64,000 bases of DNA. Source: Pocillopora verrucosa. Taxonomy: Eukaryota; Cnidaria; Anthozoa; Scleractinia; Pocilloporidae. A program made the translations under genes and the position numbers. Below are positions 11,301 through 40,716 of this stretch, piece after piece. The notes beneath the pieces were generated by a model. The model made no database searches. It saw nothing but the letters and a program-made list of their open reading frames with translations, and was not told where the DNA came from. The first letter of the stretch is position 1. The number at the start of each line of letters is the position of its first letter. Location of the stretch: contig NC_089315.1 in assembly GCF_036669915.1 (NCBI RefSeq), positions 29,194,131-29,258,130 of the forward strand. The letters run 5' to 3'.

Positions 11301-14300
11301 TTTAAGGCCAATTTTCAGGAAGGATCTCCCACATAATTATGTTGCATACTGGGAAGCGAAAATCAATGGAAAAACTGGAGAAAAATACGTGATCATCTCA
11401 GCCGGTTTGTGTTCATAGAGTGTATAACATCCTGTTTAGAATGACACTGCATTTAGGCACCTCTAATCAGGCAACACCTCAATAATGTGGGCACCAACTC
11501 TGGTTATTTTAGCTGAGTTGTAGAGCTAATCTCTGACTTAAAAAAAAAAGCAAACACTGCTTAGATAAAGAACACTTTAACCAAATTTGAATTTGAAGTG
11601 GTGATATTGTTACACCAAAAGCTGTTTTAATGGGTGTAAATTTACATGAATAAACTGAAAGAGAGCATGTACTAATAATTGGCCAGGTATAAAGCTTCTA
11701 ATTTCGTCCCAAAGTGGCTTTATTTCATGAAGCTAAACTGTTTGTGGTTTTCTGGGTAAATTAGTAAACAGAAAAGCTGAATGTGTGGTTAATAGGCTCT
11801 TGTGCCTGCTGTGTGATGAGAGGACCCAGTTATCACACATTTATAAGCTGAAAATAGGGCTTAGAGTTAAGTTTACAAGCGAGATGTGACTTGGTACTTA
11901 TCAGCTACAGTTTTTATAAGGGCCCAGCATACTATGGTTAAACAAAACAGCTGGAATAGGATTGAATAGCTTGAACCAAAATGAAACTATTGGCTGTTGG
12001 TAGCAGTGGCTTAACAGTGAAGAGCTGTGTGAATGATGAATGAAGTTTTGTTATTTGTACAGCTAGACAGACGGGAGATCATCGTCTTGCTGAAGAAGGA
12101 TCTTTACCAAGTCCTTCAGACCTACTTACAGCCCAAGCCAACAGTCATGGATATGGCTGTCACAGAGTCTATCGCCTAAGACCTGATGGTCTCATGGCAT
12201 GTGAAGATACTGATGTAAACAAAATGGTCGCCATCACAAGGAACATTGATACAGATTCTACCGTATGTACCATTTTTTTACCTTTTTCTGAGCCTTTATA
12301 AGCTAAAACCACGACTTGAATTAAAACCATAAGCAACTCTAGCCGTTGGGCAATACAGACCAGCACATGCGTGAGAGAGAGAAGTCCCACCGAGTCGAGC
12401 AACTCTTGTAGGCCCCCCAGATAAGGCCAATAATAAAACATTTTGGAAGATGAAGACATCAAGGCCGCGTGAAAGCATTTTTCAAGGAAGAGCCATAGCT
12501 TTCCTAAGCTGTCAAATAGGTCTTAAAAGAAAATCGTAATCGAGGACGTGGTCGACAATGAACAAGCTAAGCGAGAGGATGATAATGGGAGATGGTAATC
12601 ATAAGGGTTTAGCACAGTTCGAGATAATGGAAGTCATTTTTTGCCGACGGCTTAAGTAACGCGATAACACTTTTTGGCATACTTACAATGATTAACGAAG
12701 ATTACGTATAATATGTAAGTATGGTTTTAAGGATTAACATAGGATTTTAGTGATTAAGATCACCAACCCTATAGTTCAAACACTTTTACCAACTTAAGGG
12801 CTGACGGTTCTCCATAAGAAAAACAGATCAGTTACAGATATTTAGAAGTCGGGATTAAGGTAATGGATGTCACATATAATAGGGCGGTGTGGCTGAGTGG
12901 TTAGGGCGCTGGACTTGTAATCTGGTGGTCCTAGGTTCAAGTCCTCCACCCTGCCACTCACTGGATTGTTCTCGGTCGCCCCAAGGTCGACTCCGCGGCT
13001 GTGATGTGTAGAAAGCCTACTGGTTTGCCTCCCGTCAGCCGGGATTTTCAAGCGCTCTATGTTTATTTGGTGTATTTGTTACTCTCTCTTTCATGTTGTC
13101 TAGCCCACAATGTAAACTACTGGGTCCACCAGTAATTGTGATAGCCATATTAAAAATCTATTTTTTTTCTCTGCGGAAAAACAATTTCAAAAAATTAAAG
13201 CAAAAGAAGTCATTTACGGCTCGAGAGATCTTCGGTGTGCAAAGTATTTGTAAACAACCCCGGAGACAATTTGTTCCTTCTTTGTGTTCGTTGCAACCGC
13301 ATTAGAGGCATAAACGATTATTTGGTATGTTTGCGGCGAATTTAAGAGAATTAAAGAAAATGATAGTTCCATCGCACTATAACTTGTGTGAGGCTCACTG
13401 AGGAGGTGCCTGGACCATCTCACTTCTAATGTGAGTGATAAGTAACATCTCAGTCCCCGCAATATCAATTCATCGTCATGTAGAAAATAGAAGAAAAGTA
13501 TCAGATAAACGATTCCGTTTGATATGAATCAAAATTCGCAATGGAAAATAGTGGGAAACTGTACCCATTGCTTGTGCTCGCTCTCATGCGTTCTTGTTAC
13601 ATAGGATATTGATTGGAGACACCTGGACAAACAAGTAACGAGGGAGTTACCCAACATGGAGAGAGAATGGAAAGAACAAGCTGAGCGTTTGAAAAAGACG
13701 CCAGAGTGGAACAGGTTCGAGTGGCTGTCCATGGCGGTAGGGGGTAAGTAATGAATGATGTGACCGTGTACCCCACACACTTTTTGTTAGTGGCTTATGA
13801 AACTTTTGGAGGAAATCGAGTCTCTGTATACAAAAGGAAAACCTCAGATTTGTCTCCCCTTTCCCCCTCCTTCTGCCGATCTTTGGAACTCTCTTTCAAA
13901 AAAAAGGACTCATCACGTATGCTGTTTAAGAGTTGGGTTAATGGGCGGTGTGATAGACAGCTCAACACGGAAAAGAAATGTTGGCTGATAGTCGACCGAC
14001 AATCAACCGACTGTTTACCGATTGTCGGTTGGTTGTCGCTAGGCCATTCTTTTACAGTAACATGTATGTTGTGTACGGGATCTTTTAGTCTTAATGGTCG
14101 CCATTAATGTTTATTTATGCTAAGACTTATTCTTAGTGTTTAGGACGTGATTGCCTGCCGTTTGAATGTATTTTTTTTGCTTTCAGACGTTAGCACAAAG
14201 CCCACAACTCTAGTTGAACCAATCACAACCTCGCCAACACAGGAATCATCTGTTAACCTAGAAACGGAGTATAACTTCGAAGTGGAAGAAACTGAAGATG

Positions 14301-15743
14301 GTTTCAAAGCAGAGCTGGGACTGCAACCGGGCGACTCGGTTCGGATTCCTCTCGGCGAGGGCTTTCGTGATGTTCGTGTCAAGTTCGTCGGCCTTCGGGA
14401 TGGTGATTGGATAAAAGCAAAGAGCGGCAAGAAACGTTGGCAGAAACGACTTTGTCGCGTTTTAAGTGATTTGTGTGATAGTGACGGAAATGTAGATATC
14501 AGTATGGTTAGCAAACGTTTCTTCAAACTGACGAAGACGGGCGATCGTTTTATCAAAGTTAAAGTTGACGCAGACGAAAATTTTGTTCGGAGAAACCTCG
14601 GTGGAAGGGAAATACGTTTTAAAGTAGAACTGCGGACCCGTGGGACTCAGACCATGGTTATCAACTATGGAATTATTTTGAAGAATAGAAGGCATCGGCG
14701 TGCTTTCTCCAACAAGCACTTTGGAATACCACATGAAGAGTTGCTCCCAAAGTATCGTCAGCATCATCATGGCCAGTGCACGACAGGTTCGGGTCCAGTG
14801 GCGTGGGCAAAGATACTCGGTTACTTCAATAATATGGCGGCTAGAACTTACAATTCAAGTTATCCGTGAGTAGTTGTAGTGATTTAGCGTAGCAAACAGA
14901 GACAGCATGTTACATAGTCAAGTTGGCTTGCGAATCAGGGGGAAAGGAAACAGGAAAAAACGTGACGTGTTGCGTGACGTGTTGCGTGACGTGTTGCGCA
15001 TGATGTTGTTTGTTCGATTAGCCGGAGTTTTGTTAATTTTAAAAGAGCTAAAACCTTCCTCCCACCCCCAGAAAAAAATTGTTCTTATCATTAAATTAAT
15101 CCCAGGTCCTCATTATTCCAATATGCAGTCTATCCAAAAGTGTTTTTCTTTCTACATACGAAAGTGACACCATGAATTTTCAAAGTGTGGAAATGAATAA
15201 AGGATGTTTAGGTTAATCCTCTCTAATTTTTCTTACATTTACAGACCACTGAACAATATGTTGGATTGGCCCGCTCATTTACCTCTAACAATGGACGCAT
15301 CGGTAGAAAACATGACGCAACGGATATTTTCCGAGCTTGGATCGCATTGTTCACACCATGGTGGAGGAGTAACCTCCCCTGCTCACATGGGGCGAATCAA
15401 GAAAGCCTTTGAGAAAGTCCCGGGACGAGAGCTTAAAGTTATTCATCGAGGATACCATGAAGGCGAGGCAGGCTCGTGGAAAAACTTGATCATCGATCTT
15501 CTGAAAAAAGGATACCCAGTTATTGTGAGTAAAGACAACAGTAAACATGGCCAGCACCACTATGTGGTTGTAACACGGATCCGACAGAGTGCGAGGTATT
15601 ACAGTTTTTGTCACCGTCAGACAGGCGAATGTTCGCCTTGGACTTTAAAGGAGGAATCGCTGATGTTTGTTCACGAGGAAGACGCGCCTGGTAAATGGGA
15701 ACCCGCCGACATTCGATTTATGGCTGCAATCTTTGAGAGATGA
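8352..15743 (+). CDS. type II membrane protein with C39/streptopain-like cysteine peptidase ectodomain
   Basis: Six exons join in frame: 8352-8581, 11115-11404, 12063-12262, 13605-13743, 14187-14865 and 15245-15743 (678 aa). All junctions are GT-AG. A basic stretch (TERRRPPR, about residues 43-50) precedes a hydrophobic helix at 52-72 with no signal peptide, which implies a cytoplasmic N terminus and an outside C terminus. Residues about 100-240 contain YVIISAG and a downstream Cys pair, reminiscent of streptopain-type propeptides. A Thr/Pro-rich link and a charged beta-rich region follow. The peptidase-like part begins at GQCTTGSGPVAWAKI (Cys484, Ser488). It continues through GSHCSHHGGGVTSP and ends with GQHHYVVVTRI, whose His617/618 would be the catalytic His. 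In C39/C10-like relatives, as I recall them, the nucleophile is a Cys directly before GP-x-A-x-A. Here that position is Ser, so activity is uncertain. An AATAAA lies at 16665. The fold assignment is by motif memory, not search. Confidence 0.75.
10250..10293. repeat. 22-bp direct repeat, two copies, in intron 1 of the peptidase gene
   Basis: Two adjacent 22-bp units (10250-10271 and 10272-10293) contain AGCTACTGAATGG and differ at one base. It is a local tandem duplication in an intron, with no sign of function. Confidence 0.85.
12882..13090 (+). mobile_element. tRNA-derived SINE (intron 3 of the peptidase gene)
   Basis: The left end is a tRNA-like head. An A box (TGGCTGAGTGG, 12890-12900) and a B box (GGTTCAAGTCC, 12934-12944) are correctly spaced. 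The anticodon arm has loop CTTGTAA, giving a TGT (Thr-like) anticodon. The acceptor stem does not close cleanly, so it is not a functional tRNA. A non-tRNA body follows (ACTCACTGGATTGTTCTCGG onward), of the kind I associate with repeated SINEs in coral genomes. The 3' end and target-site duplications could not be defined, so the right boundary is approximate. It sits in sense orientation inside an intron of 1342 bp. Confidence 0.75.
13997..14038. repeat. inverted repeat with 15-bp arms rich in CCGAC/GTCGG
   Basis: Arms CGACAATCAACCGAC (13997-14011) and GTCGGTTGGTTGTCG (14024-14038) pair at 14 of 15 positions around a 12-nt loop. The unit also has a periodic CCGAC pattern. It lies in intron 4 of the peptidase gene and may be a fragment of a dispersed repeat. 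No coding role is visible. Confidence 0.7.
14961..14996. repeat. 12-bp tandem repeat, three perfect copies
   Basis: CGTGACGTGTTG is repeated exactly three times, about 95 bp into intron 5 of the peptidase gene. Each copy holds a TGACGTG (CRE-half-like) core. It is small and probably a simple tandem array. Confidence 0.9.
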
Positions 15744-17389: not shown

Positions 17390-20170
17390 ATGAAGGTGAT
17401 GATGGCGATACTCCTTGTGCTTAATATTCCGGTGGCCTTTACCAGTAAGTATTAGTATCCTTGTATGCTCTATTTGTGGCGGTTTGATCGGCTCCGTTAA
17501 GTGTGGATGTTGGCAGCCGCATAGTTAGTAATACACAGCGGGGTTTATGTAAACATCACTAAGCCCGATTAAGCCTTTCGTGGGGTCTTGTAATCCTGCT
17601 ATTCACCACTGGGATCTCGAGGGTTTAGTTTTTAAAATAAGGACACCACCTACTATTCATGCGAAATAAGTTAGGCTCAGGAAGCCTTATACGATACACC
17701 AACTTAAGTTTTGAAGCTAACTAGAATTTTTGCTCTTCCGTGCTGCATCTTTAGATATCACAATGACGTCTCTACAGTCTTTCGCTCAGGAAACGTTTTT
17801 AACATGCTTTTAACTGTACCTTACTGCATTGCTTTCTTTCATTTTTCCATATGCGCAATTTAGTTACTTTCGTGGTGGTTCCATTTTCATTGAGGGCTAA
17901 CGGTACGGGAGGACTTTCTAGCGATCTCGTAATTCGGTATCCGCACCATGATATAAGGACAAGTTTTTATGTCCATTGTCTCGTGATACCAATACTTTGT
18001 ATGAATATACACTGCCTGGTTCCGTATACCAATCTGCCGTCGTTTACTGAAATTAGTGAGACGTATTAGATGCGAAAAAAGCAGCCGGCCGATGGAAACT
18101 TAATCGAAAAGTCTATATAAACAACTTTAGAAATCTTCGATATGCCACTAAGTCTTTTGAAATGTTCTAAAGGTTTTTTTCGGAAAAGTGCCTGTTTCAT
18201 TTCTTTCAACGAACGCTAATTAAATCCCACATTCCTTTGAAATGAGGAGATTTGCGCGGGAAAATTTTTAAGTTCTTTGACTAGGAACCCCGCTGTGCTC
18301 TCTTTATTTCGAACCGAGGTTATGGCCGCAGCAAAGTGAATTCTATTACACGATGAATATGTAAACATATGTGTGTAAGAAGTGTAAAGTTTTACGGTCT
18401 CAAGACATTAACACTTTCATTGCATCTACAGAAATGCTGCCATCTTTCTCCATCCTTCAAAAAATGTATCTTGGCGATAAAAATTATGGAGGGATTTACA
18501 ACCGCTTGAATGTTGAAGAGTACCTTTTCCCAGAAGACAGTGGTGAGCTCAAATTCTATCCAAACGCCACATGCATATTGCGCATGAGCGCCGTGTTAAA
18601 CGTCACAACAGAAAGGAACGGAAGCAAGAAAGGTCTGAAAGGCTACCATTATTTCTATGAACGAGCACCTCTGTTAGAGTACCTCAAGGAAGAATTTGGT
18701 AAGCCTATTGTATCTAACAATACCGCAGTTTTTCGAGGGCAAGTGGGAATAATGTTCGTTGACATCAAAGATGGAGATGACAGCAAAGATTGTAGCGTTC
18801 TGTTATGGGACGGGAATGGATTTCATCAAGCAAAAGGTGTCCTAAAACACAAAAATTTCATATCTGCTCAGCTGTGGCCTGCTCCTACAGGTAAGTGGAA
18901 GATGCACGTCGGAGTAACATTTGGGTTTAGGGATTTAATCAATTAGAGTGCCTGAGCTGAATGATTTTATCATGTAGACTATCCTTGCTGACCTGACCCT
19001 AGCCGAGGAGACCTCCCCTTTGAAAGCTTGCCTCGGTTGGCCGTACGTGGTCTGGGTACGAGATAATTAGATGGGCATTTACAGTTTGGGAATAGAATAT
19101 CGGGTTCAAGGCTTATAGCTTGTAAAACACCTAAGTAAATTAGCTAATGAATCTTTCCCCTTTGTATCAGATGGCTGTGTAATCGACGTCAACGTTAAGC
19201 AATCAGGCGGGGGAACATGCTTCCCTTCGAAAGCTAAAGTAGAGGTCAGATCTGGGAAGAAGATTCCCATCAGTGAGCTCGCCATTGGAGACACAGTCAA
19301 GACCTTTTCTAGGGGTGGTGAAGTTGTCTTTAGTCATGTGGTTACCTTCTTGGATCAAGCGCCTGACCACAAGGGTAGGTGGTACACTTGAATAAATTAT
19401 TTCTACATCTTTGTATTTGTCTCCTAAACTTTTTACTTATTTTTAAGTTCTCCTAGACAAGGTGTTTGCCGTTATTACATTTACTTGGAAATCACTGGTT
19501 ATCCTTGTAATCTGATTGGCTTCCAAATTCTCATACTAATTTGGTACTAATAAAAGTCCTGGGAGACTTGTATTTGAAAAGACTCTCAAGGACAAAACTT
19601 TTAAGATACAGATACAGCTCAAATTTTCTTCCCTACACAGGTCATTATTACACCATCACTACTGAAGACTACATCAAGCTCACACTCAGTGAGGCTCATC
19701 TTGTGTTCGAGTTCCGACCTCTGAGTGCGAAGTTGGGAGGGAATACCTTTCGCTCAGTGCATGCATCCCAAATCAAGCCTGGTGACTACATCCTCGTTCA
19801 CGTTCCAACGTACCATGCTCCTATTGCAAGGAAGGTTATGTCAGTCTCGACGGCTGAAAGATTTGGTGCCTTTGCACCAGTTACCCAAGAAGGGACCATG
19901 ATCGTGGACGGTGTTTGGGTATCGTGTTACGCTGACATTGTGGATCATGATTTGGCTGATTCTCTCATGTCCCCACTGAAGAGCTTTTACAACATGGCCC
20001 CTCAAACGCTAGGAGCAAGAGGCTTGAACGTTCATGGGTACCTTAAACAAGTCTTGCGTCCCATTGGCTTGCGAATCCTTGGAAAAGAGAAGTTCTATCA
20101 AGGACCTGAAGGCGAAGAGACTGCGGGGAAAGACAACACCATAACATCAGTTTATCACCAGAATATCTGA
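17390..20170 (+). CDS. secreted Tae4-like amidase domain fused to Hedgehog-type Hint domain
   Basis: Four exons join in frame: 17390-17444, 18432-18890, 19171-19374 and 19641-20170 (415 aa), all GT-AG. Exon 1 encodes a classic signal peptide (MKVMMAILLVLNIPVAFT). Exon 2 (residues about 19-171) matches the type VI secretion amidase effector 4 family. It has the nucleophile region NATCILRMSAVLN, then GYHYFYERAPLLEYLKEEFG, a hydrophobic strand, and CSVLLWDGNGFH before LWPAP. Bacterial Tae4 cleaves peptidoglycan cross-peptides using Cys and His; here the usual GH before xxLWDG reads CS. Exons 3-4 are a Hint/Hog domain. They show GGGT then CFPSKAKVEV (predicted splice before the Cys), ISELAIGDTV, TLSEAHLVFEF in place of the TxxH block, SCYADIVDHDLADS, and a C-terminal hydrophobic tail like a sterol-recognition region. 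Hint domains self-cleave and can attach sterol to the upstream part. AATAAA is at 20247. Introns and exon phase show a eukaryotic gene rather than bacterial contamination. Confidence 0.85.
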
Positions 20171-21404: not shown

Positions 21405-24400
21405 TCATTCAATAAAATACTCTTGGAGAGTGTGCCATTGCTCTATTTCAAGGTGAGGCTTTTCCATGGCTTGTTCCCAGTGTTTGTATTCGCTCTCGAC
21501 ATTCACGCAATACCCAAGATGCACCGTGCCCAAGGGGACGTCACGCACTCTACCACGATGCTTAACCTTGAAGAACAGCGTGATCTGAGGCAGTTTGTCT
21601 GAGTCCACATCGAACACATACATTTCGCTGAAGTTTGGTGTTTTGGTGTTATGAGCAGTTTTTGTCGTCCGAGTGCTAAGCTTCCGTCCACAGAAGGTGA
21701 GATCTAGTTTCACAAATGGATCTGAAAAAAGATACCGACAGTCGACGTTAACTGTACGCTATTACCAAACCTTTTCCAAGAGTTTTTGAACAGTGTTTGG
21801 CGAGCCGAAAGGACATGTCGATCGAACTGCACAACGATATTTCACTGCAATTAAATAAGGTATCTAAAAAATTCAACCATTTTCATTTAATGTACAATTG
21901 ATTGTCTTAATCGAGCATTTTTCTTGATACTTTGTGCTTCAGCATATGGGAAAACTCCGATATATCATCCATGAAAATAATCTAAGAAGTTATTAATCAT
22001 TCGTTATGGTGGAGAGAGTTTGTAAAAAAATTATCTTGTTTTATTATCTTTCTTTCTCTTATTTATTTATATACTTTGTTTTTGTTGTTGTTATCTGGAA
22101 GGGCTACTCACTTAGTCTCCCGTCCTTTGTAATCTGTTGTAAGCCCCTGGCACAGTTTACCTTCACCATTAGTTTTTGATCCGTCGGGTTGTGACACAAA
22201 GAAATCGATAGCTCGCCAAGCCCAGAGGATAAATCTTCAACTTCTTCCTGAAAACAAACAAAGTCAGAAAAAGATAAGGAAGGTTATAACAAAGGTCAAT
22301 GATGGACGACCCTCTCGAGTTTCTCCATGGTTTACTTAGTTGCATTAATTAAAAGTTAGAGTTCCGAAAACTTTTGCCTAGGGGCCATTTTCTTGTCAAA
22401 GGGGGGGGGGGGGGTCGATACAAATGCTTAGTCGTTGCTTTCCATGCCTACACGGCCAACGTAGAAAAGGTGATGTAGAGAGGGGAGAGAGGATGGAGAG
22501 GGCAAAATTGCTTTAAGGGCGAAGCTCATTCTCTTCTTTCGCTTCCCCTTCTACTATGGCCACGCATGCACAGACTATAGCTGTATAGCTGTCCGTTTTC
22601 GATAACTAAGATGTGATTGCAATGGTGAAATCTGTTTCTGCCTGACATCATTAACTCAAAACATTGGAGTGCGTCTCTGCCTGAAATATTGACGGATGAG
22701 ATTAACTAAAAACCAGCCGAGACATTTATCAATCCGATGTAAAAAGTGAGCTTGTTAGACTCAACGGAAGCGAATACTTGACTGTCAAAAGCGGCTACCT
22801 AAGTGGCTTGGACTCGATGGTTTTTGCTTCTCCCAGTTATGTTCCCGAAATAAAAGCGAGCCCAAAAAAGCGCTCAATTGTAGGTCATGAGGTTTCCGGA
22901 AAGGAAAATGTTCTTCAGACCGCAACCAGAAGACAAAACTTTTTTCTCCACCTTTATGGTCCTCCCAATTTAGTTTAAGACGACCCTTTCACAGTCGCTC
23001 GTAACCATCAGCGTCAAGCGCGTAAGAATTAATTTTATCCTTTTTCAGTTGCTGTCCTCGTATCAAAAATTTTCTGCTAAGTTCTCTTTTTTTTGTCGCT
23101 GCTGTGAATAAAACAGCTGCTGCATTCGTACAAGGACTTAACAAGAGTGGAGGGGGGGAGTTTAAAATGTGTATTTTATATAATCCCTAATATCTTCCTA
23201 AATTTCATTCAGACGCTGGTGAACAACCCCCCCATTGTAAAATATTGTGTTGATGAAATTTCTATTTTTTTAATGCATTGCGTCAGCATCCCTACCGTCG
23301 ACAAACTTTGCAATTAGCACAAGCCTCTCAACGTGCTCCAGACCTATATCGCTTAAATCAACTCCTAACAACCCAAATTTAGCGACCAGTTTGCGTCAGC
23401 ACAACGGCGATATCGATCATGAACCGTGTGGAAAAGTTTTAACATAGGAGTATGAATCACTACCTGAGAACTGAGAGGGAAAGAAATGAAAAATAAGGAA
23501 GTGTGGAATTATTTAATTTTGTCACATGGGAAAAAGTCTAAGATGTTTCTAAGCTATATGAAGAAGGAAAATTTATCATCTACGTCGCGGCGTCAAGTTT
23601 GTCGCCTTTCTGACGTAATGTCATCGTCTCCCTCGATTGTTTGGGTTCCGGCTCTTTTCATCCGGAGCATAGTTAATGTATATTTTTCCAATTCATTAGA
23701 AAAAACCAAAATCCGAGATTTTTACAAAAACCAAAATAAGCTGTTTTTTTTTTTTTAAATTACACAGCAAAATTGAGGAGCAAAACAAAAGAGCATCGCG
23801 TCAAACTGTGACATTGACGGAATCTTTTGAAAAATTTCAATAGATTGGAATGAGGAACTTTCTGGTATTTTACATGATATAAGCATCCGTTCATTTAAAT
23901 AAACTTAATTTTTACCGTCTGTTTCTGATATCTTGATCAACAATGAATGTTTCTTGGGTCTTCTGTAGATTTTGTCGAACTCGTCAAAAATTTTGAGTTT
24001 TGTGAATTTTTTTTAAATCTGTGATATAAAAAACTGACATTAAATAGTCACGCAATATAAGTCAATATTGTGTAATTAGCTGCGCTCAAGAAGTTTCAAA
24101 ACACATACCTCGATGGGGCATTCTGTTTCATCTATTTCAACTGGAATCAGGGGAAGAGTTTTCGTTGTTAACTTGTTCGGCGGAAGATCTTTTAAAATGT
24201 ACTCCACTTCTCCGATAATTGTGTTCGTTTGAGTATTCAACAGCTGAAAGCGTAACATACCCTCTGAAAGTTTTCCTTGAGTTATTCCGTACGCCTCCAA
24301 TTTTTCATTAAACTGCGGATCGTTCGTTTTCTTAACTACACGAGTTTTCTGTTCCCAAATTTGTTTGCCATTTAAAACTATCGATGCAGCGACATGTATA

Positions 24401-25140
24401 TCAGGTGGATGTACGCTTCCCAGAATCACTATCTTAATCCCACGGGTTGCGTAAATTTGCAGCAAACGAAAAGACTGATCGTAATATAGGGAAAACTCAA
24501 GTTTTCCCAAGTTTATCTCTGGGTTTTTCTTGTGAACCGCAACTTTCCTTTGCTGCGGAATAGAGAGATTTTCTTTCGAGGATTGCTTTTGTGGGTGCGA
24601 AATTTTTCGCGGTGTCCTCGGGGTTCTTGGCAATTTGGGTGTTATGGACGGAGGCGAGATTGTTCCAGTGTTGATTGCATCTAGCTGTATGCCTCCTCCA
24701 TCTTCCGCTTTGCGCCGCACGTTGACACTGTGAACTGTCGCTGACAGATGAGCATGGCCATGCCGATACTCCTCTTTAGAAATACTACAAGTTCGTTGAA
24801 GTTCTCCGATCGCCGGTTGTTGTTGTGGAACAGAGACGGCCTGGGGAATATAAAATGGTGGAATGTCCTGGTTGATTATTGTCCGCGAGCGAAGTGTAGG
24901 ATCAGATGTCAGCTGGGTGTATTTATAATTATTTGTTGAAGAGCGTTGATGAAAATACTGTATCAGCAAATAAACAACGACCACAACCAATCCGGCGACT
25001 AAACCCAAACCAACAGCCAAAACAACTACAATAAAGAAGGAAAACAGAAAGGTTAAAGCACTATTAAAAGCAGTCGAATATATTGTCACTGATACTAGAA
25101 ACAAAACGTTAGATTGAAGTAGTTTACCTTGATTAACCAT
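21405..25140 (-). CDS. synaptotagmin-like protein, one membrane segment, C2A and C2B
   Basis: Minus-strand exons in reading order are 25140-25128, 25025-24109, 22247-22112 and 21721-21405 (460 aa, phases consistent). The first intron (102 nt) has good splice sites but is also an open in-frame stretch. If retained it adds 34 hydrophobic residues. The spliced N terminus is MVNQ followed by a Val/Leu-rich helix (about residues 5-27). A Pro/Ser/Arg linker follows (TPKLPRTPRTPRKISH). C2A runs about 177-305 (LGKLEFSLYYD, RVVKKTNDPQFNEKLE, IIGEVEY). C2B runs about 311-460 (LGELSISLCHNP, NPFVKLDLTFCG, KTPNFSE, HWEQAMEKP, EQWHTL). The end carries the synaptotagmin W-x-x-x-M-E-x-P and WHxL marks. The Ca2+-site aspartates of both C2 loops are mostly absent, so phospholipid or protein binding is probably Ca2+-independent. 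Exact family membership is unknown. Confidence 0.8.
22401..22414. repeat. poly-G tract (14 G)
   Basis: An uninterrupted run of 14 G lies in the large intron of the first C2 gene. It is a simple-sequence feature prone to length error in sequencing. Confidence 0.95.
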
Positions 25141-30391: not shown

Positions 30392-33300
30392 CTATGCGTT
30401 GTCGGTAGGCGCACGCAGCACATAAGTCCTTTTGAATTTATCACATGACTTAAGTTCCTCTAATGACACGTCCACCTGAGCAAAGGGTTTGTCGTCCTCT
30501 CCCAAACGCACAACCATAAATCTGAGGATAGCTTCTTCTAAATCCATTGCTTTTACTCCAGACATGACAAAATGGTCTCTCAAAACAAAGCTGTCCGTGA
30601 TGTTTACCGTCCTTGTACGCTGCCATGTTGAAAATTTTGGTAAAAGGCAAACTTTCACGTAAACATCGCATTCTGGCATTACATTTTCGTTTAGAGTAAC
30701 TTCAAGACCCAAAATAGAGACGTAAAGCAAAGAGGTGACAGAATTACCGTTCTTGTACAAAACAGACACTTTTAGATTTCCTACTAAAGCTTCTTTGTCG
30801 CTCGTAAGATGATTGGATCCTTGGTCGATATTTTGCTGCTGTTTGCGCTTTTCACCATCTCGTCGAAGTGCATTTAAAAGAGTAGACATTATTTGAGTGT
30901 CTTTACCCACTTTTAAAATTCGCTGATCAAAATTTTTTGAATGTTCTCTTTGGACAAGACCAACATCCTTTTTTTCTGAGGCATTAGTAGTTGAAATTCT
31001 ACCATCCACAGTCTGGTATTTCTTTGCATCTTTAACTTCTAAGTTGTCATGTAGAGTGTTACTTAGAACCACCTTTTTCTTCTGCCTCGAGTTTTTATCG
31101 GGAAAAAAACTATCTGTGTCAGATTCCACAGCGAAGCTTAGTGTCACGCTTGATGTATCCGCTACACTTTCATCGATCGGTGCAAAGCAACTTGCACCCC
31201 TATTTTCTTCCAAGTTTATTTGAAAATTGTTTGCTTCATCGCCACAACTGCGACCGCTATGGAACTTTCTTTTAGGTTGCTCAGCAAAGCTGCTCGCTCC
31301 TCTCAAGTTCATATCTCTCAAAGAGCAGAAATCACCAAAGATACTCGCCCCTCGAAGTTCATTCTCTCTGATATCCGTGTTCACAAATTCACTTTGTCTT
31401 GCAGTGGTTTCAATGATCGCTCTATCTTCTTCTTCACTTTGGACAGCACCCAAAATGCTGGCACCTCTTAGTTCTGTTTGCTCAGAGTGTAACGCCGCTT
31501 TAAAACCTTTTTCAGGTGTGCAGGGAAACTTTTCTACCGTTTTCTGGCAATGAACTCTACACGAAGGTCCATGAATACACATCGCACTTGACGCTCTAAG
31601 GAGATTTAAAGTACTCTGTCTTCCACCTTTCGCGAGACGCTCAGTTCTTGATGTAATAAGCTGACGATCGTCATTCAGAAACTCAGAACTATTTTCAGCA
31701 GTTATCGTATTTGTCTTATTTGATTGGCTGGAGGTCATCTGAAACTCACCATGCCCTTTGCAACTACCTGGACCCAAACACAGTGAGCCTGGTGCCCTTA
31801 CCGTTTGCAAGCAGCTTAGGCGACCTCCACGATGGACTGAGTTCTGAGCCAGAGGCAAATCATCTTCTGAAATTACCTGCAGTTTTGCCAACAGCTGTAA
31901 ACTTTCCTGAAGTGGTGCACGCATTTTTCTCCGGCTCGATTGACAGTCCCTCTCATGAGTTGCGCACCAAGGCCTTCCAATGTCCTCGTCAGGAGAGTCA
32001 ATAGCCGAAGGGCTAATCTTCCCTCCTTCATTGCGGAACTCTTCCACATCGTTTAGCCACTTTTCCAAATCCATGCGTCTCAGTGGACTTTTATTAATTT
32101 CTCTCATATTCTCTGACGTTAAAGATCCAGATATCTGCGCACCTGGAGTTTGAGGCTTTATCATATCACTGTGAGCTGTATATGCGTCACATTCGCTCCC
32201 ATGATTCTGAGTTTTATTTGAGCTTTGTGCAATATCACCCCAAGTGAGTTGTGTTTTGTTAACTTGAGGCTTCTCTGCACTGGTTCTCATTTTTTCAGCA
32301 TCTGCCCCATGTATGGAACAATTGCAGCCTTTAACACATAAAGTACTAGGAGCACTTTCTAACTGGAGCACACTTGCTCGTCCTCCACCATAAACTCCAT
32401 AGTCAAACTGAGGTGTCTTATGCCTGCCGGGTATCTCATTTATTTCTCCTTCGTGGAAACTTAAAGAATGATGTTCACTGATCGGATACTTTTCTAAGCT
32501 ATCGACTTCGTAACTATCCGGAGAATCAGTACCAATTCCGCTGGATGCAGCGGGATTTCTTTGTGCATGGTCGTCTCTGCTAAAACATTCCATCACGCAA
32601 TCCCTGTCTTGATACGAAGTCTTTTTGCAATCTTTTGTGTTGAAATGAATTGGACTTACACCTGTATCTCTGACTTCCGCCTTAGACATATTTACTACGC
32701 ATGTCTGCCCAAGTAATCCCCCGATGTTGCCAACTAATCCGCTGACTGGCTGGAACTGCGGTAAATCTTGATATTCTTTCCTTACAGCATCCACAACGTC
32801 GTTGTTTTCTTGCTGCAGCACAGAGGACGGTTCTTTTGCGATTTTCTCCGGTATGTTATGAAAACGAATCGTCCGTCGCCCATATTTTTGTTCAAATTTT
32901 CTTTTAAACTTATCCTCCGACATTTTTTTGCTTTTGCATGGGACGGTTCCGCTTGAAAAAAGTATACCGCCGAAAATGAGCATAAGTAACGCGCCAATGG
33001 CAGGGAGAAGGAACGCGCTGATATCAGCTGAGTTATCTTGAGGTATGGCGTCAGTTTCCTCAGAGGTCTGGTCAGAAAGGTCTGAAATAAAGTAGATATG
33101 TTACGTGAAAAAATTCAGAATCTATCGATGTCAGTAGGATAGTTTTTGTTTTCTATTTTATAAACCTCTGAACAAAATTTAGAATTATACACTGCAAAAT
33201 AAGTTTTATGGAAGTTCACTCTTTGTAGAGAGATTGGCTAAAATTTATTCCGCTCTTTTTATAAAAAAGCATATTCAGATTGAAATAATAAGTGCCGCCT

Positions 33301-35331: not shown

Positions 35332-38300
35332 ATGATGAAATGGCGACCATCGGAGGATTCGCCTGGCATGACGCTTCCGACCTTCAAAGGTAAGGAATGC
35401 TTGATTTAACACATGAAAAATATTGTTGGAATACTTATTGAATTATGAAGATTATTTTTCCGGATATTTTGAAAAGATCACTGCAGCGGCGGCCAATTTC
35501 TACACGAAGAAACTCGGTTTACCGCAGCGGAATTGCTATTTTAAAACATAATAGCTTGCATGCTCCTGACCAATCCTGTTCTTCAGTCAAAACGAATTTT
35601 TTAATCCATACTATAAAAGTATAATTATCTGTTTTTTAATTCGAGCCAGAGGTTACTTGAAAAAGGTAGGCTCCGGAATTGGATTCTCGTCTTGATAATT
35701 ATTTGTATTGATGTCGTTTGTCAGTTTGATCAAGTTTGATGAATTTGCTACAGCCTTGAAGTGTAACACTTAATTGTATTCTTACAGAAAAAAAGAGATG
35801 CTTCTCGTTTTGAATTTCACCTGCGCTGAGCATGCAAACACTTCAAATTTTTTGAGTACTGGGTATTGAGTTGCAAAGAGCACTATGATGTTGTTAGAAT
35901 GTGCTTTGTGTAAGATAAAGGTGCTTTGACTTAGAACGCTGAGTGCTGAATGGTGGATGGATTTATTGATATTTTTTATGATTCGTTGCTCGAAATCAGC
36001 TATGACTTATATTTAGACAAAATTAGGAAAAGAGATGAAAGACCAAATCGTCACACCTGGTGCCAATTGAGAAACATTTCACCAGTAACTGACCAATCAA
36101 AGATCACTGCTTTATTTTGGCGCCGTAATGAATTTGTTGTTGGGTCGTACCGCGTTTACATACAAATGGTGCATTCTTGTCCATAGGATGCACTTGATAT
36201 CACTTTTAAGCTTGAATCAATTCAGATTCACACATAAGGAAAATCTGGTGAAAGAAGGATATGTGTTCTGTTGTTTTGCTCTTTTGATACGTAGGCATGC
36301 ATGGCAACTTTTATATTTGTCCCAGTTTAGAGTTAAGTTGATCTTTATGAACTGAAACAAAGAGAAAATGAGGGCTCCTTGAGGAAGAATTGAACTACAT
36401 TAGCGAACTTCAGTGTTTCTGACACACTTTTTCTCCCTAAAAAAAATTGCATTCATGAAACGCGACCATTTTCTGCGAGACTTTGAAACCATGTAATGCA
36501 AGAGAAGTGAACGATTTGCTCGTTTTTTTCAGATCTGTTATATTGTCTTTTATACTAGGGTAGCCCTTAACAACTAAATTCCACCTGTATAAACTTCTGA
36601 GCCGCTTGCTTGGCCAAAACATAATAAAAACAGACACGTCGCCCCTTTCATATGCAAATGCACGATGATGATGCATTCAAAATGCGCTCGAGTGAATTTT
36701 GTACAGTTATAACGCACCCTGTGAAAAATTGGTGAATTGATACAAGGGAGGCTATTTATCTCCGAGTTGCTAAACAAGAGGTGAATTTAAGAGAGAGAGA
36801 GAGAGAGAGTAAATTCACGGCGATGGTGGAGGTGAAACTTGTGTTAAATCTTGACCGGTTTAGTGTAAATTGGGTAAGAGAAGTAGATTATGGCGCCACT
36901 TCTTCCTACCCCGCATCGACATAACAAGTCGTCTCTAACTAGAGACAGTAAGAACATCAAACGTGGTAAGACGCTTTTTTTAATAAATATATCGACGGAT
37001 AACGTTTCTATTTACCTGTCGATAGATTTCTCATAGTAGTTGCGATATCAACTCATCGTCAATGGTTTTATTTTTTTATGATACTTCAGATCAAAATGAA
37101 CTTGATACGGGCAAAATGTTCGTCCAAGAATTGTGAGCGTTGACACAATTATAGTCTAGGAGGATTTTTCATTAAGTCTGTTCTTTTATCAGTATAGATT
37201 CTTGCATTTTTGACAAATCTTTGCATATGAAGATTGCTGAGGATCTATCTATTATTCCATCCTTTCAAACAACAAATACATGTAAGATAAATTTTCGTTA
37301 TTTACCCAGTGCAACAGTAGTTGTTGATAACCATGGCAGAAAATTTATATTGTGAGAAATTTATTACAATATTACCCTTCCATTGCAGATCAGTGTGAAC
37401 ACCAATTCAGTGTTATCTTTTAGTCTGCATTTCAATACCATGTCTTGTTGGGCCTTGTTGAAAAAAACTTGAACCCCTTGCGAGAATTTGCGCGTCTTAT
37501 CGCCGCTTAAAAAGAAAAAAATCGTGCTAGTCATAGGCTGGAAAAAAATTAATTTGACATCAGCTTGGCCTGCTACCATTTTGAACACAATTTGAAATAA
37601 TCTTTACGTGAAAAATTTGGGGCTTTAAAACGTTAGAAATGTATCAAAACTGTAATCTGATAAATTAACCCCGGCAATTTAACCTGAGGGGCCACAGGAA
37701 AGCCTTTTGACATATTAAAATTCTGCGATGTTTTCTTTCCTTTTTCTTTCTCCCTCTCTTGAATTTGCATTTTGCCGTTTTACTGACGAATAATAAAAAA
37801 ATTATCAATTATAATTTGGTGTTGACAATGATTATACGCAATTGTTTCTGGAAATATTATCACATTTTGATATTCCCAATAAAATTAACGGTGTATTTAA
37901 TTATTCCGTCGCGGCTATTTAAGTTGCTTTGTCATTTTTTTTTCGAAATATTTATGTGCGAGGGAAATTGGCTTTCAACGCCACCTAAAAAATTTGCATT
38001 TTCTATACGCAATAATTTCCCTGAGGAGTGCATAAATGCATGCATGTTATTTATATATATATATTTTTTTTCTTTCAGACTTTGATCCTCGCAGTAAACC
38101 ACACTCAGCCAATTTTATGACACGCTTTGCATCCAACAACACGGGATTATTATGTCTCTTTGGCATTCTCGTCTTGCCAATCCTCTTAGGCTTTGCTATC
38201 GGCTACCTTTTAGTTGTTTTAGGCGTCAGCGCCTACAAAAAGATAACAGGGGAAAAGTCACGCGCGCATGCCGCAAAAGAAGCCTCGCAGAAGATACAAC

Positions 38301-40716
38301 TTGTCATGGGAGACAAGATAGTGGACTCTTCTTTCCCTAAAACTGTATCTTTAAATGTTCAAGAGACAAAAAATCGTAGTTTTCCTTGTCCTCCTACAAG
38401 GTATTACTACCATCGGCTGTGTAACTATTCCAATGAAATTGTTAATGGCGATTCGACCACATTCAATGACGAAAGCTCAGTCTCTGGAGACGAGACAGAT
38501 CACAGGTCACGAGAAAAAGTGACGCTACTTACCCCGGATGTTCAAGAGTCGGACTCTAGTACGCATGCGTCACTAGAAGATAACTTGGATAAGACTGAAG
38601 AAGAAGTGGTAAGAGAAGACATCAGTTTTAAACAGGACAAGGACTCGGGTTTTTCTGGGGAGGAAAACAGTCCTGGGAAGAGAAAGAGATGTAATTCGAG
38701 TCCCACATCCACACCGCAAAAGAGGCACTTGGATTTGCCAGAAAATAAAACGAATGAGATGAACTTGAAAGAGATAGGTCTCATAGGAGAAGATCAAACA
38801 CCATCGCCTGATAACCCGGATGGAAAACTTGGAAAAGTTCGGTTTGCCCTTCACTACAATGTTGCTAAAACAGAGCTTCAAGTAAACGTAATAAAGGCGG
38901 TCGGCCTTCCCATAACTGATAATAAGGAAGGAATTAACCCACTGGTCAAGATATCTCTACTACCACAGCAGTTCTGTTGGCAAAGAACAAAAATCATCGA
39001 AGGAACCCCAGATCCCGTTTTCAACGAGACTTTTGTTATTTCAGGTTTTTCAAAGGATAGAATCAAAGAATACGAGTTGAAGTTCAGAGTAGTGAACTTT
39101 CACGACAAGTTCAAAGACCGATATGCTGATGATGTCATAGGAGAAATACTTTTTCCTTTGTCGGAGTTAAAGTTGATGGAGAACAGACCCTCGTTTTCGA
39201 TCACCAAGTGGCTGTACTTATCACCTCCACCTCCATTCGGGGTAGGTTAAACAGACAAACTAGGGCGGCCTAGTTTTCCTCTATATAATCCTTACATACC
39301 AAAATCCTAGAATATGCTAAGAAAAAATCTTTCTTTAATTAAGACCTTTTCAAAACCCACTAAATGTTCGAGAATATTTCTACAATCTTTGAGTGGAACC
39401 TCAGCACCTCTTTAAGAAAGAGAATGGCGTGCACATTTTGTACGCTGGCTAGCGCTTGAATTAAACCGAAGGCGCGCAGTATTCCTCCTGATTTAACTGA
39501 AATAGAAAATTGTAAAAGTAAGTGATGGAGACACCCAAAAACTTACAAACTTATAAAGCATACAAAGTAGTCGAATCCTTTACTTCATAGAACAATTTCA
39601 CTTCAGAATCATTCCCAAATCCTGTTTGTTCCTAACAATCACCCAAAAAACCAAGAAATCAATGGGTACTTTTAACATACCCGGATTCTTTTGTCACCGG
39701 CCTGCTTCTATTAAAGGATGATAAACCCCCCTCGAACAACCAGTTATGTTTGTAAATGAGCTCTTTTTCATGTATTTTCTCCCAACTCTTTAACGTTCAT
39801 GATCTGAGTTGTAATTCGCCTTTTTAGCTGTCATACATTTCTTTGTAATTTAGTGAAGAGAGTTTGGTGCTATATAAAAATAACACCCTATAGCTTCCAA
39901 TTTTGTTGAATTTTTTCACCTCTTTTCTGCAGTAATGAATTAAACCTCTGTGCCTAAACAATAGTTACTTTCGTTTGTCCATCATTCGTCAGATGGAAGC
40001 GGCTGACATCGGAGAACTGTGTGTATCGTTGTGTTTCCGACCGATCAGCGGTCGACTTATCGTAACTGTCACCAAGATCCGTGGATTACCAAAGGCAATT
40101 GCAGACCGCACAGGTGAGTTATTGCAGGCTCATTTAATGGCGTTAAGATGTTCAACCTTAAACACAACCTTAAACCAAACTTTAATCTTCAACAAAACAA
40201 ATAGACAAAATAAAGCAATGGTCTATAAGCATTTTGCTTCTCATATTTTTAGCTGTACTAAAATGATTTAGCGCTTGAAGTATTGAATTCACCTGTTGCA
40301 TTCATATCACAAAGAAACGGTGCATACAACATGAACTTCGAGTTGCCGTGTTTGCAACTAAACGGAGCCACCTTAACTTCTACGTTTCTTTGTCTACAGA
40401 CCCGTACGTGAAGCTTGCGCTATACTGTGATGGTGTCCGCTTATCTAAGGCCAACACGCGCGTAAAGAGACGGAGCCTCAATCCCGTGTACAACGAGAAG
40501 TTTAATTTCAACATTTCCGCTGACCAGATATCCCTTACAACCGTAATGCTCAAGATAGTGAATCATTCGGAGATCAACACTGGCGGCGGGAGTTTGGGTA
40601 CGGCTATTCTTGGATTTGATTCCTTTGGGTCTGGGCAGGAGCAGTGGAAATCAATGATCGAATCTCCAAGTAGGCATGTCGAAAAATGGCACAAGCTTTA
40701 CAAGGATGTTTACTAA
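35332..40716 (+). CDS. synaptotagmin-like protein with C2A and C2B
   Basis: Four exons: 35332-35389, 38079-39241, 39993-40113 and 40400-40716 (552 aa), phases consistent. Exon 1 gives MMKWRPSEDSPGMTLPTFK. It was chosen because its phase-1 end and GTAAGG donor fit the acceptor at 38078; the 2.7 kb intron makes this the least certain join. The membrane helix is about residues 43-69 (LLCLFGILVLPILLGFAIGY). A linker rich in Ser, Glu and Lys contains a basic patch GKRKRCN. C2A runs about 268-395 (GKVRFALHYN, NPLVKISLLP, WQRTKIIEGTPDPVFNETF, VIGEILFPLSEL). C2B runs about 412-552 (GELCVSLCFRP, DPYVKLALYCDG, LNPVYNEKFNF, EQWKSMIESP, EKWHKLY). C2B keeps the DPYVKL aspartate, but loop 3 lacks the DxD pair and C2A has Asn in place of Asp. 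It is the best-preserved member of the cluster. Confidence 0.8.
36791..36810. repeat. (GA)n microsatellite
   Basis: A perfect GA dinucleotide run of about 20 bp lies in the first intron of the plus-strand C2 gene. Confidence 0.9.

Follow-up and report, generated by a model that had tools for sequence, protein, structure and literature searches.

The Tae4-Hog gene in the window and in other corals

The window analysed here is a 64,000 nt stretch of the coral Pocillopora verrucosa, corresponding to C4:29194131-29258130 in a genome of 353 Mb and 52 contigs. At positions 17390-20170 it carries a four-exon gene, hereafter Tae4-Hog, that joins a domain of the Tae4 fold to a Hint/Hog domain, and this observation was confirmed. 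The spliced gene has an unbroken frame of 415 residues (Table 1); its introns are 987, 280 and 266 bases long, and all three have GT-AG sites and phase 1. The exon 1 product has a hydrophobic start that, judged by eye, reads as a putative signal peptide. As claimed in the initial annotation of this DNA, a signal peptide (a putative one), a Tae4-like domain in its own exon and a Hint/Hog domain across the next two exons follow one another in phase.

Table 1. Exons and key codons of the Tae4-Hog gene (positions in the window)
Feature	Position	Strand	Remark
Exon 1: start codon and putative signal peptide (MKVMMAILLVLNIPVAFT), phase-1 donor	17390..17444	+	spliced frame
Exon 2: Tae4-fold domain, residues 19-171	18432..18890	+	
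Codon C66, equivalent of Tae4 nucleophile Cys44	18572..18574	+	Cys in 25/25 rows
Codons C139 and S140 (S140 at the Tae4 His126 position)	18791..18796	+	C139 in 25/25; His126 in 0/25
Codon H150, near the Tae4 Asp137 (third-residue) site	18824..18826	+	placed by sequence spacing only
Exon 3: linker with C174, then first third of Hint	19171..19374	+	C174 in 7/7 full-length sequences
Codon C188, Hint nucleophile; predicted cleavage point T187/C188	19218..19220	+	
Exon 4: remaining Hint (S256/H259 motif, C335 of SCYA), predicted C-terminal helices, stop	19641..20170	+	
Codon C335, equivalent of Drosophila Hh C400	19925..19927	+	

Both parts, with identical junctions, were found in six full-length relatives, five of which have a comparable hydrophobic stretch ahead of MLP, while the sixth, P0001, begins at the exon-2 part. 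Three of them carry NCBI names: P0001 is the 'tiggy-winkle hedgehog protein-like' of Oculina patagonica, P0006 an 'uncharacterized protein' of Montipora capricornis and P0007 the 'desert hedgehog protein-like' of Acropora millepora. We took P0002 (413 residues, longest contig 1383 nt) and P0003 (415 residues, longest contig 2098 nt) as complementary DNA (cDNA), because neither contig reaches the 2781 nt that the gene spans in the window. Moreover, all 24 relatives of exon 2 have a Gly just beyond the exon-2 reading of the window and diverge after it, which fits a common exon edge in genomic DNA read ignoring introns. The Tae4-Hog gene is real and conserved in corals, and apparently present in a single copy in the genome of P. 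verrucosa. It follows that some coral genes called 'hedgehog protein-like' in databases are no hedgehogs.

The two domains and their active sites

We assigned residues 19-171 to the Tae4 fold. The Pfam curated cut-off for Tae4 (PF14113) is 27 bits, and in a scan of eight relatives, seven of them with the domain, P0005 (27.1), P0006 (27.5) and P0022 (30.9) were above it and P0001 (19.7), P0002 (18.5) and P0003 (16.9) below it; P0007 had no match to this family at E <= 0.01. The initial annotation had proposed searching the exons with the PF14113 and Hint profiles: the Hint part stood firmly, with a match at E 1.9e-43, whereas the window protein alone reached 16.2 bits for Tae4, short of the cut-off.

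In Salmonella Tae4 the catalytic dyad is Cys44 and His126, with Asp137 in contact with His126, and the effect on growth is lost if Cys44 or His126 is changed to Ala or if Asp137 is mutated (PMC3695027). We counted the corresponding residues in an alignment of 25 rows (the window protein and P0009-P0032) and, separately, in seven full-length sequences, placing the His126 position by alignment to 4j30 anchored on the V-x-L-W-N-G that comes next. The nucleophile is kept as C66 in 25/25 rows, within a motif, C-x-L-R-M-S, that is invariant in all of them. His is never found at the His126 position, which is occupied by Ser in 14 rows, Gly in five, Lys and Asn in two each and Asp and Pro in one each (Ser in six and Asn in one of the full-length sequences); the residue just before it is an invariant Cys, C139. 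Near the Asp137 site, as placed by spacing in the sequence, H150 is His in 24 rows and Tyr in P0022, and is followed by an invariant Q151.

On a plain reading of these residues the normal Tae4 catalytic mechanism would have been lost, and we hold the loss of normal amidase activity to be probable. The retention of C66 could be explained by a disulfide between the invariant C66 and C139, or by a relocated Cys-His pair. The interpretation given in the initial annotation held in part. As for its term 'amidase', the Cys is conserved, but the equivalent of His126 is never His, so that an antibacterial amidase role is doubtful; the word should be dropped for the coral protein until activity is shown.

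Hog domains cleave themselves at their first Cys, and Hedgehogs add cholesterol. The nucleophile Cys, the (T/S)xxH motif and SCYA are present in 7/7 full-length sequences, which identifies a Hog module. The initial annotation had considered cleavage before CFPS, and this site, just ahead of C188, is supported as the likely one. The active-site Asp for sterol transfer (Dmel D303, hSHH D243) corresponds to D233, present in six of the seven full-length sequences and replaced by His in P0005. Helices are predicted beyond SCYA, where the sterol recognition region would lie (H324-345 and H352-368 in P0001), in a block with a predicted local distance difference test score (pLDDT) of 55-68. In two Hog relatives, P0005 (TFLHQ) and P0034 (TFIHR), the active-site Asp is replaced by His, which makes them natural variants suited to a test of the sterol step.

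Ahead of the Hint Cys, 7/7 full-length sequences have 3 to 7 glycosylation sequons, and three Cys ahead of Hog are shared by all seven. HH_signal (PF01085) was absent from the four families listed for the window protein at E <= 10; hedgehog proper was rejected as an identity, the N-terminal Hedge domain (PF01085) having not been found. A tree of Hog domains failed to resolve whether the Hog of Tae4-Hog came from hedgehog.

Proposed processing and its alternatives

The reading we favour, which we regard as moderately likely when all its parts are taken together, is that of a secreted, self-processing Hog protein whose N-domain comes from the Tae4 branch of the NlpC/P60 amidases and is now a lipid-tethered pseudoenzyme; the occurrence of Hog processing, taken by itself, is likely. 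Precisely, in the secretory pathway C188 would attack the bond that links it to T187; a sterol or some other nucleophile would then resolve the resulting thioester and free the Tae4-fold domain, of about 170 residues, tethered by lipid to the cell surface. This domain would most likely no longer cut peptidoglycan by the Tae4 mechanism and, less certainly, might serve as a sensor, decoy or signal of short range by binding either a host partner or fragments of peptidoglycan.

Several points weigh against this reading. Cleavage, sterol attachment, secretion and ligand are all inferred. In the Hog part, the equivalent of Drosophila T326 is Ser in the coral protein, and the cleavage site has Thr at position -1 (in one relative Ser) where Hedgehog has Gly, although Asn takes this position in L001, a hedgehog gene of the same genome. 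Overall confidence in the full-length model is low (pLDDT 64.9, predicted template modelling score 0.44), the PF14113 score of the window protein alone is under the cut-off, and the single copy is supported by one protein search only. Finally, with C66 invariant and H150 nearly so, an altered catalysis could survive, and the invariance of both C66 and C139 would instead fit a disulfide.

An alternative that we regard as unlikely is that the N-domain has no link left with peptidoglycan and that its scaffold has been put to new use in a host ligand, an adhesion protein or a matrix protein, Hog-processed like nematode warthog or groundhog. The loss of the active-site His and the sequons before the Hint Cys are in its favour, as are the divergent N-termini that Hog proteins commonly have (PMC2362128), but the invariance of C-x-L-R-M-S in all 25 rows points to a continued use of the old pocket, or to a need for it in the fold.

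It is also conceivable, and in our judgement quite improbable, that the Tae4-fold domain has remained an active enzyme through a remodelled site, with C66 as nucleophile and H150 as base; anchored by lipid, it would cleave peptidoglycan in bacteria close to coral cells, largely in line with the initial annotation. The third residue of papain-like folds usually contacts His, not Cys; here His126 is missing from every row and P0022 has Tyr instead of H150. On the other side are the conservation of C66, H150 and Q151, the His126 place being variable and mostly small (Ser or Gly in 19/25 rows), and the fact that the third site of the NlpC/P60 enzymes Tse1 and YkfC is occupied by Cys or His, though beside the usual His (PMC3695027). 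That the fusion is an artefact of gene model or assembly uniting two neighbouring genes, as might be thought of two domains in separate exons of a window known from DNA alone, is largely refuted and has a negligible chance, given phase 1 and GT-AG sites in every intron and identical junctions in the proteins of the three named corals and in the two cDNA-sized contigs.

Other Hog loci and known systems

A search of the whole genome gave 15 Hint matches, grouped into 12 loci: two hedgehogs (C10 and C11), a cluster on C1, a WSC-Hog gene (C5) and Tae4-Hog. The exons of the two hedgehogs match HH_signal (L002, E 6.9e-38; L001, E 1.8e-31), and their Hedge exons also match peptidase M15_3 below the Pfam cut-off (L002:759-1031, E 4.6e-4; L001:2453-2728, E 3.5e-4). 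The Hedge exon of L001 has, in addition, weak matches to VanY and further M15 models, all below Pfam cut-offs. At L011/L012 (G000:C5:27664866-27665370) a WSC domain precedes Hog, and the frame shifts inside the Hint region, with overlapping matches in two frames; an assembly error, an intron or a pseudogene are candidate explanations.

Around Tae4-Hog, ten nearby frames were scanned and revealed ordinary animal genes, three with C2 domains (21408-21758 and 24079-25140 on the minus strand, 38036-39247 on the plus strand) and one forkhead gene. An open frame of 902 residues at 30395-33100 had no Pfam match at E <= 0.1. Upstream, on the same strand as Tae4-Hog, the gene at 14144-15743 has in 15201-15740 a weak match to Peptidase C10 (streptopain-like; E 0.0057, below cut-off), and the frame before this part contains a GQCTTGSGPVAW stretch resembling, by eye, the nucleophile motif of Cys peptidases; it is possibly another secreted Cys peptidase.

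Tae4-Hog is a new form of Hog protein and does not make up a system of a new category. Novel N-termini ahead of Hog have been reported before in Cnidaria (PMC2362128), and the remark in the initial annotation that it knew of no described animal protein joining the two domains did not hold in one respect, the fused proteins being already in databases for three corals; it stood in another, as neither the fusion nor the Tae4 identity of such an N-terminus was found described in the literature searched, outside which most subscription papers fall.

In contrast to the Tae4 effectors of type VI secretion systems and to eukaryotic genes for domesticated amidase effectors (dae genes), the coral family is without the catalytic His in 25/25 rows and is fused to Hog in an animal gene with introns. 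By definition dae genes are eukaryotic and secreted and keep the catalytic Cys and His; they were reportedly described by Chou et al. in 2015. Tae4-Hog was not classed with them: it is an animal gene with introns and a putative signal peptide, yet its catalytic His is lost.

Nematode warthog, groundhog and quahog resemble Tae4-Hog in having Hog behind lineage-specific secreted N-domains, for which the excerpt of PMC2362128 names no bacterial enzyme ancestry. The same paper reports an hh-related Hog gene common to Nematostella (Nv 120428) and Acropora (DY579185), with a secreted novel N-terminus and at least three conserved Cys before Hog. Compared by description only, it shares with Tae4-Hog an N-terminus that is secreted (putatively so in Tae4-Hog) and three Cys; it could belong to the Tae4-Hog or the WSC-Hog family, both of which fit the description equally. 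If it is Tae4-Hog, the gene was noticed in 2008 and its domain went unrecognised then.

The AIG1-Hint proteins of Acropora, in which an immunity-linked N-domain is fused to a PF01079 Hint (PMC3723955), are likewise coral proteins joining an N-domain to Hint; they differ from Tae4-Hog in their AIG1 GTPase N-domain, and the four copies aligned from the genome of the window (L003, L005, L007 and L008) have His at the active-site Asp position. These copies lie in the C1 cluster (L003-L009, L014 and L015; G000:C1:35.10-35.58 Mb), where one copy is split and seven frames are unbroken; L003 and L014, the two loci tested, have AIG1/GIMAP exons beside them. Their His for Asp may point to a nucleophile other than sterol.

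Hedgehog is built like Tae4-Hog, with a secreted N-domain (putatively so in Tae4-Hog) followed by a Hog that has the nucleophile Cys, (T/S)xxH, the active-site Asp, SCYA and C-terminal helices, the last being predicted ones in Tae4-Hog, and in both the N-domain is related to bacterial peptidoglycan peptidases: Hedge has been related to DD-peptidases (PMC6027127) and to M15A enzymes (PMC8052667). The two differ in the N-domain, which in Tae4-Hog is of the Tae4/NlpC-P60 type (a Cys peptidase fold) and not Hedge, in the residue at -1 (Thr versus Gly) and in the Hint region, split by an intron in Tae4-Hog and contained in one open frame in both hedgehogs of the same genome. Since the Hedge exons match M15_3 too, one coral genome pairs Hog with two unrelated folds akin to peptidoglycan peptidases. 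For Hedgehog it has been proposed that a bacterial cell-wall peptidase was transferred into a cnidarian ancestor and fused with Hog (PMC6027127); Tae4-Hog is a cnidarian case of such a pairing in which the cell-wall peptidase fold is an unrelated one, and it can be compared across corals. Tentatively, and with less than even confidence, we suggest that on two or more occasions in animals Hog may have acquired the fold of a bacterial peptidoglycan peptidase, once yielding Hedge and separately, in corals, the Tae4-derived domain. In both, catalysis would have been abandoned or altered and the pocket turned to recognition; on this view Tae4-Hog would act outside the cell, anchored by lipid, as a signal of the Hedgehog type or a sensor of microbes derived from a bacterial weapon. 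By uniting a domain related to a bacterial weapon with the self-cutting half of Hedgehog, Tae4-Hog offers a natural parallel to the possible origin of Hedgehog, and makes testable the idea that lipid-anchored signals or microbe sensors can arise repeatedly when Hog processing is combined with a disarmed cell-wall enzyme.
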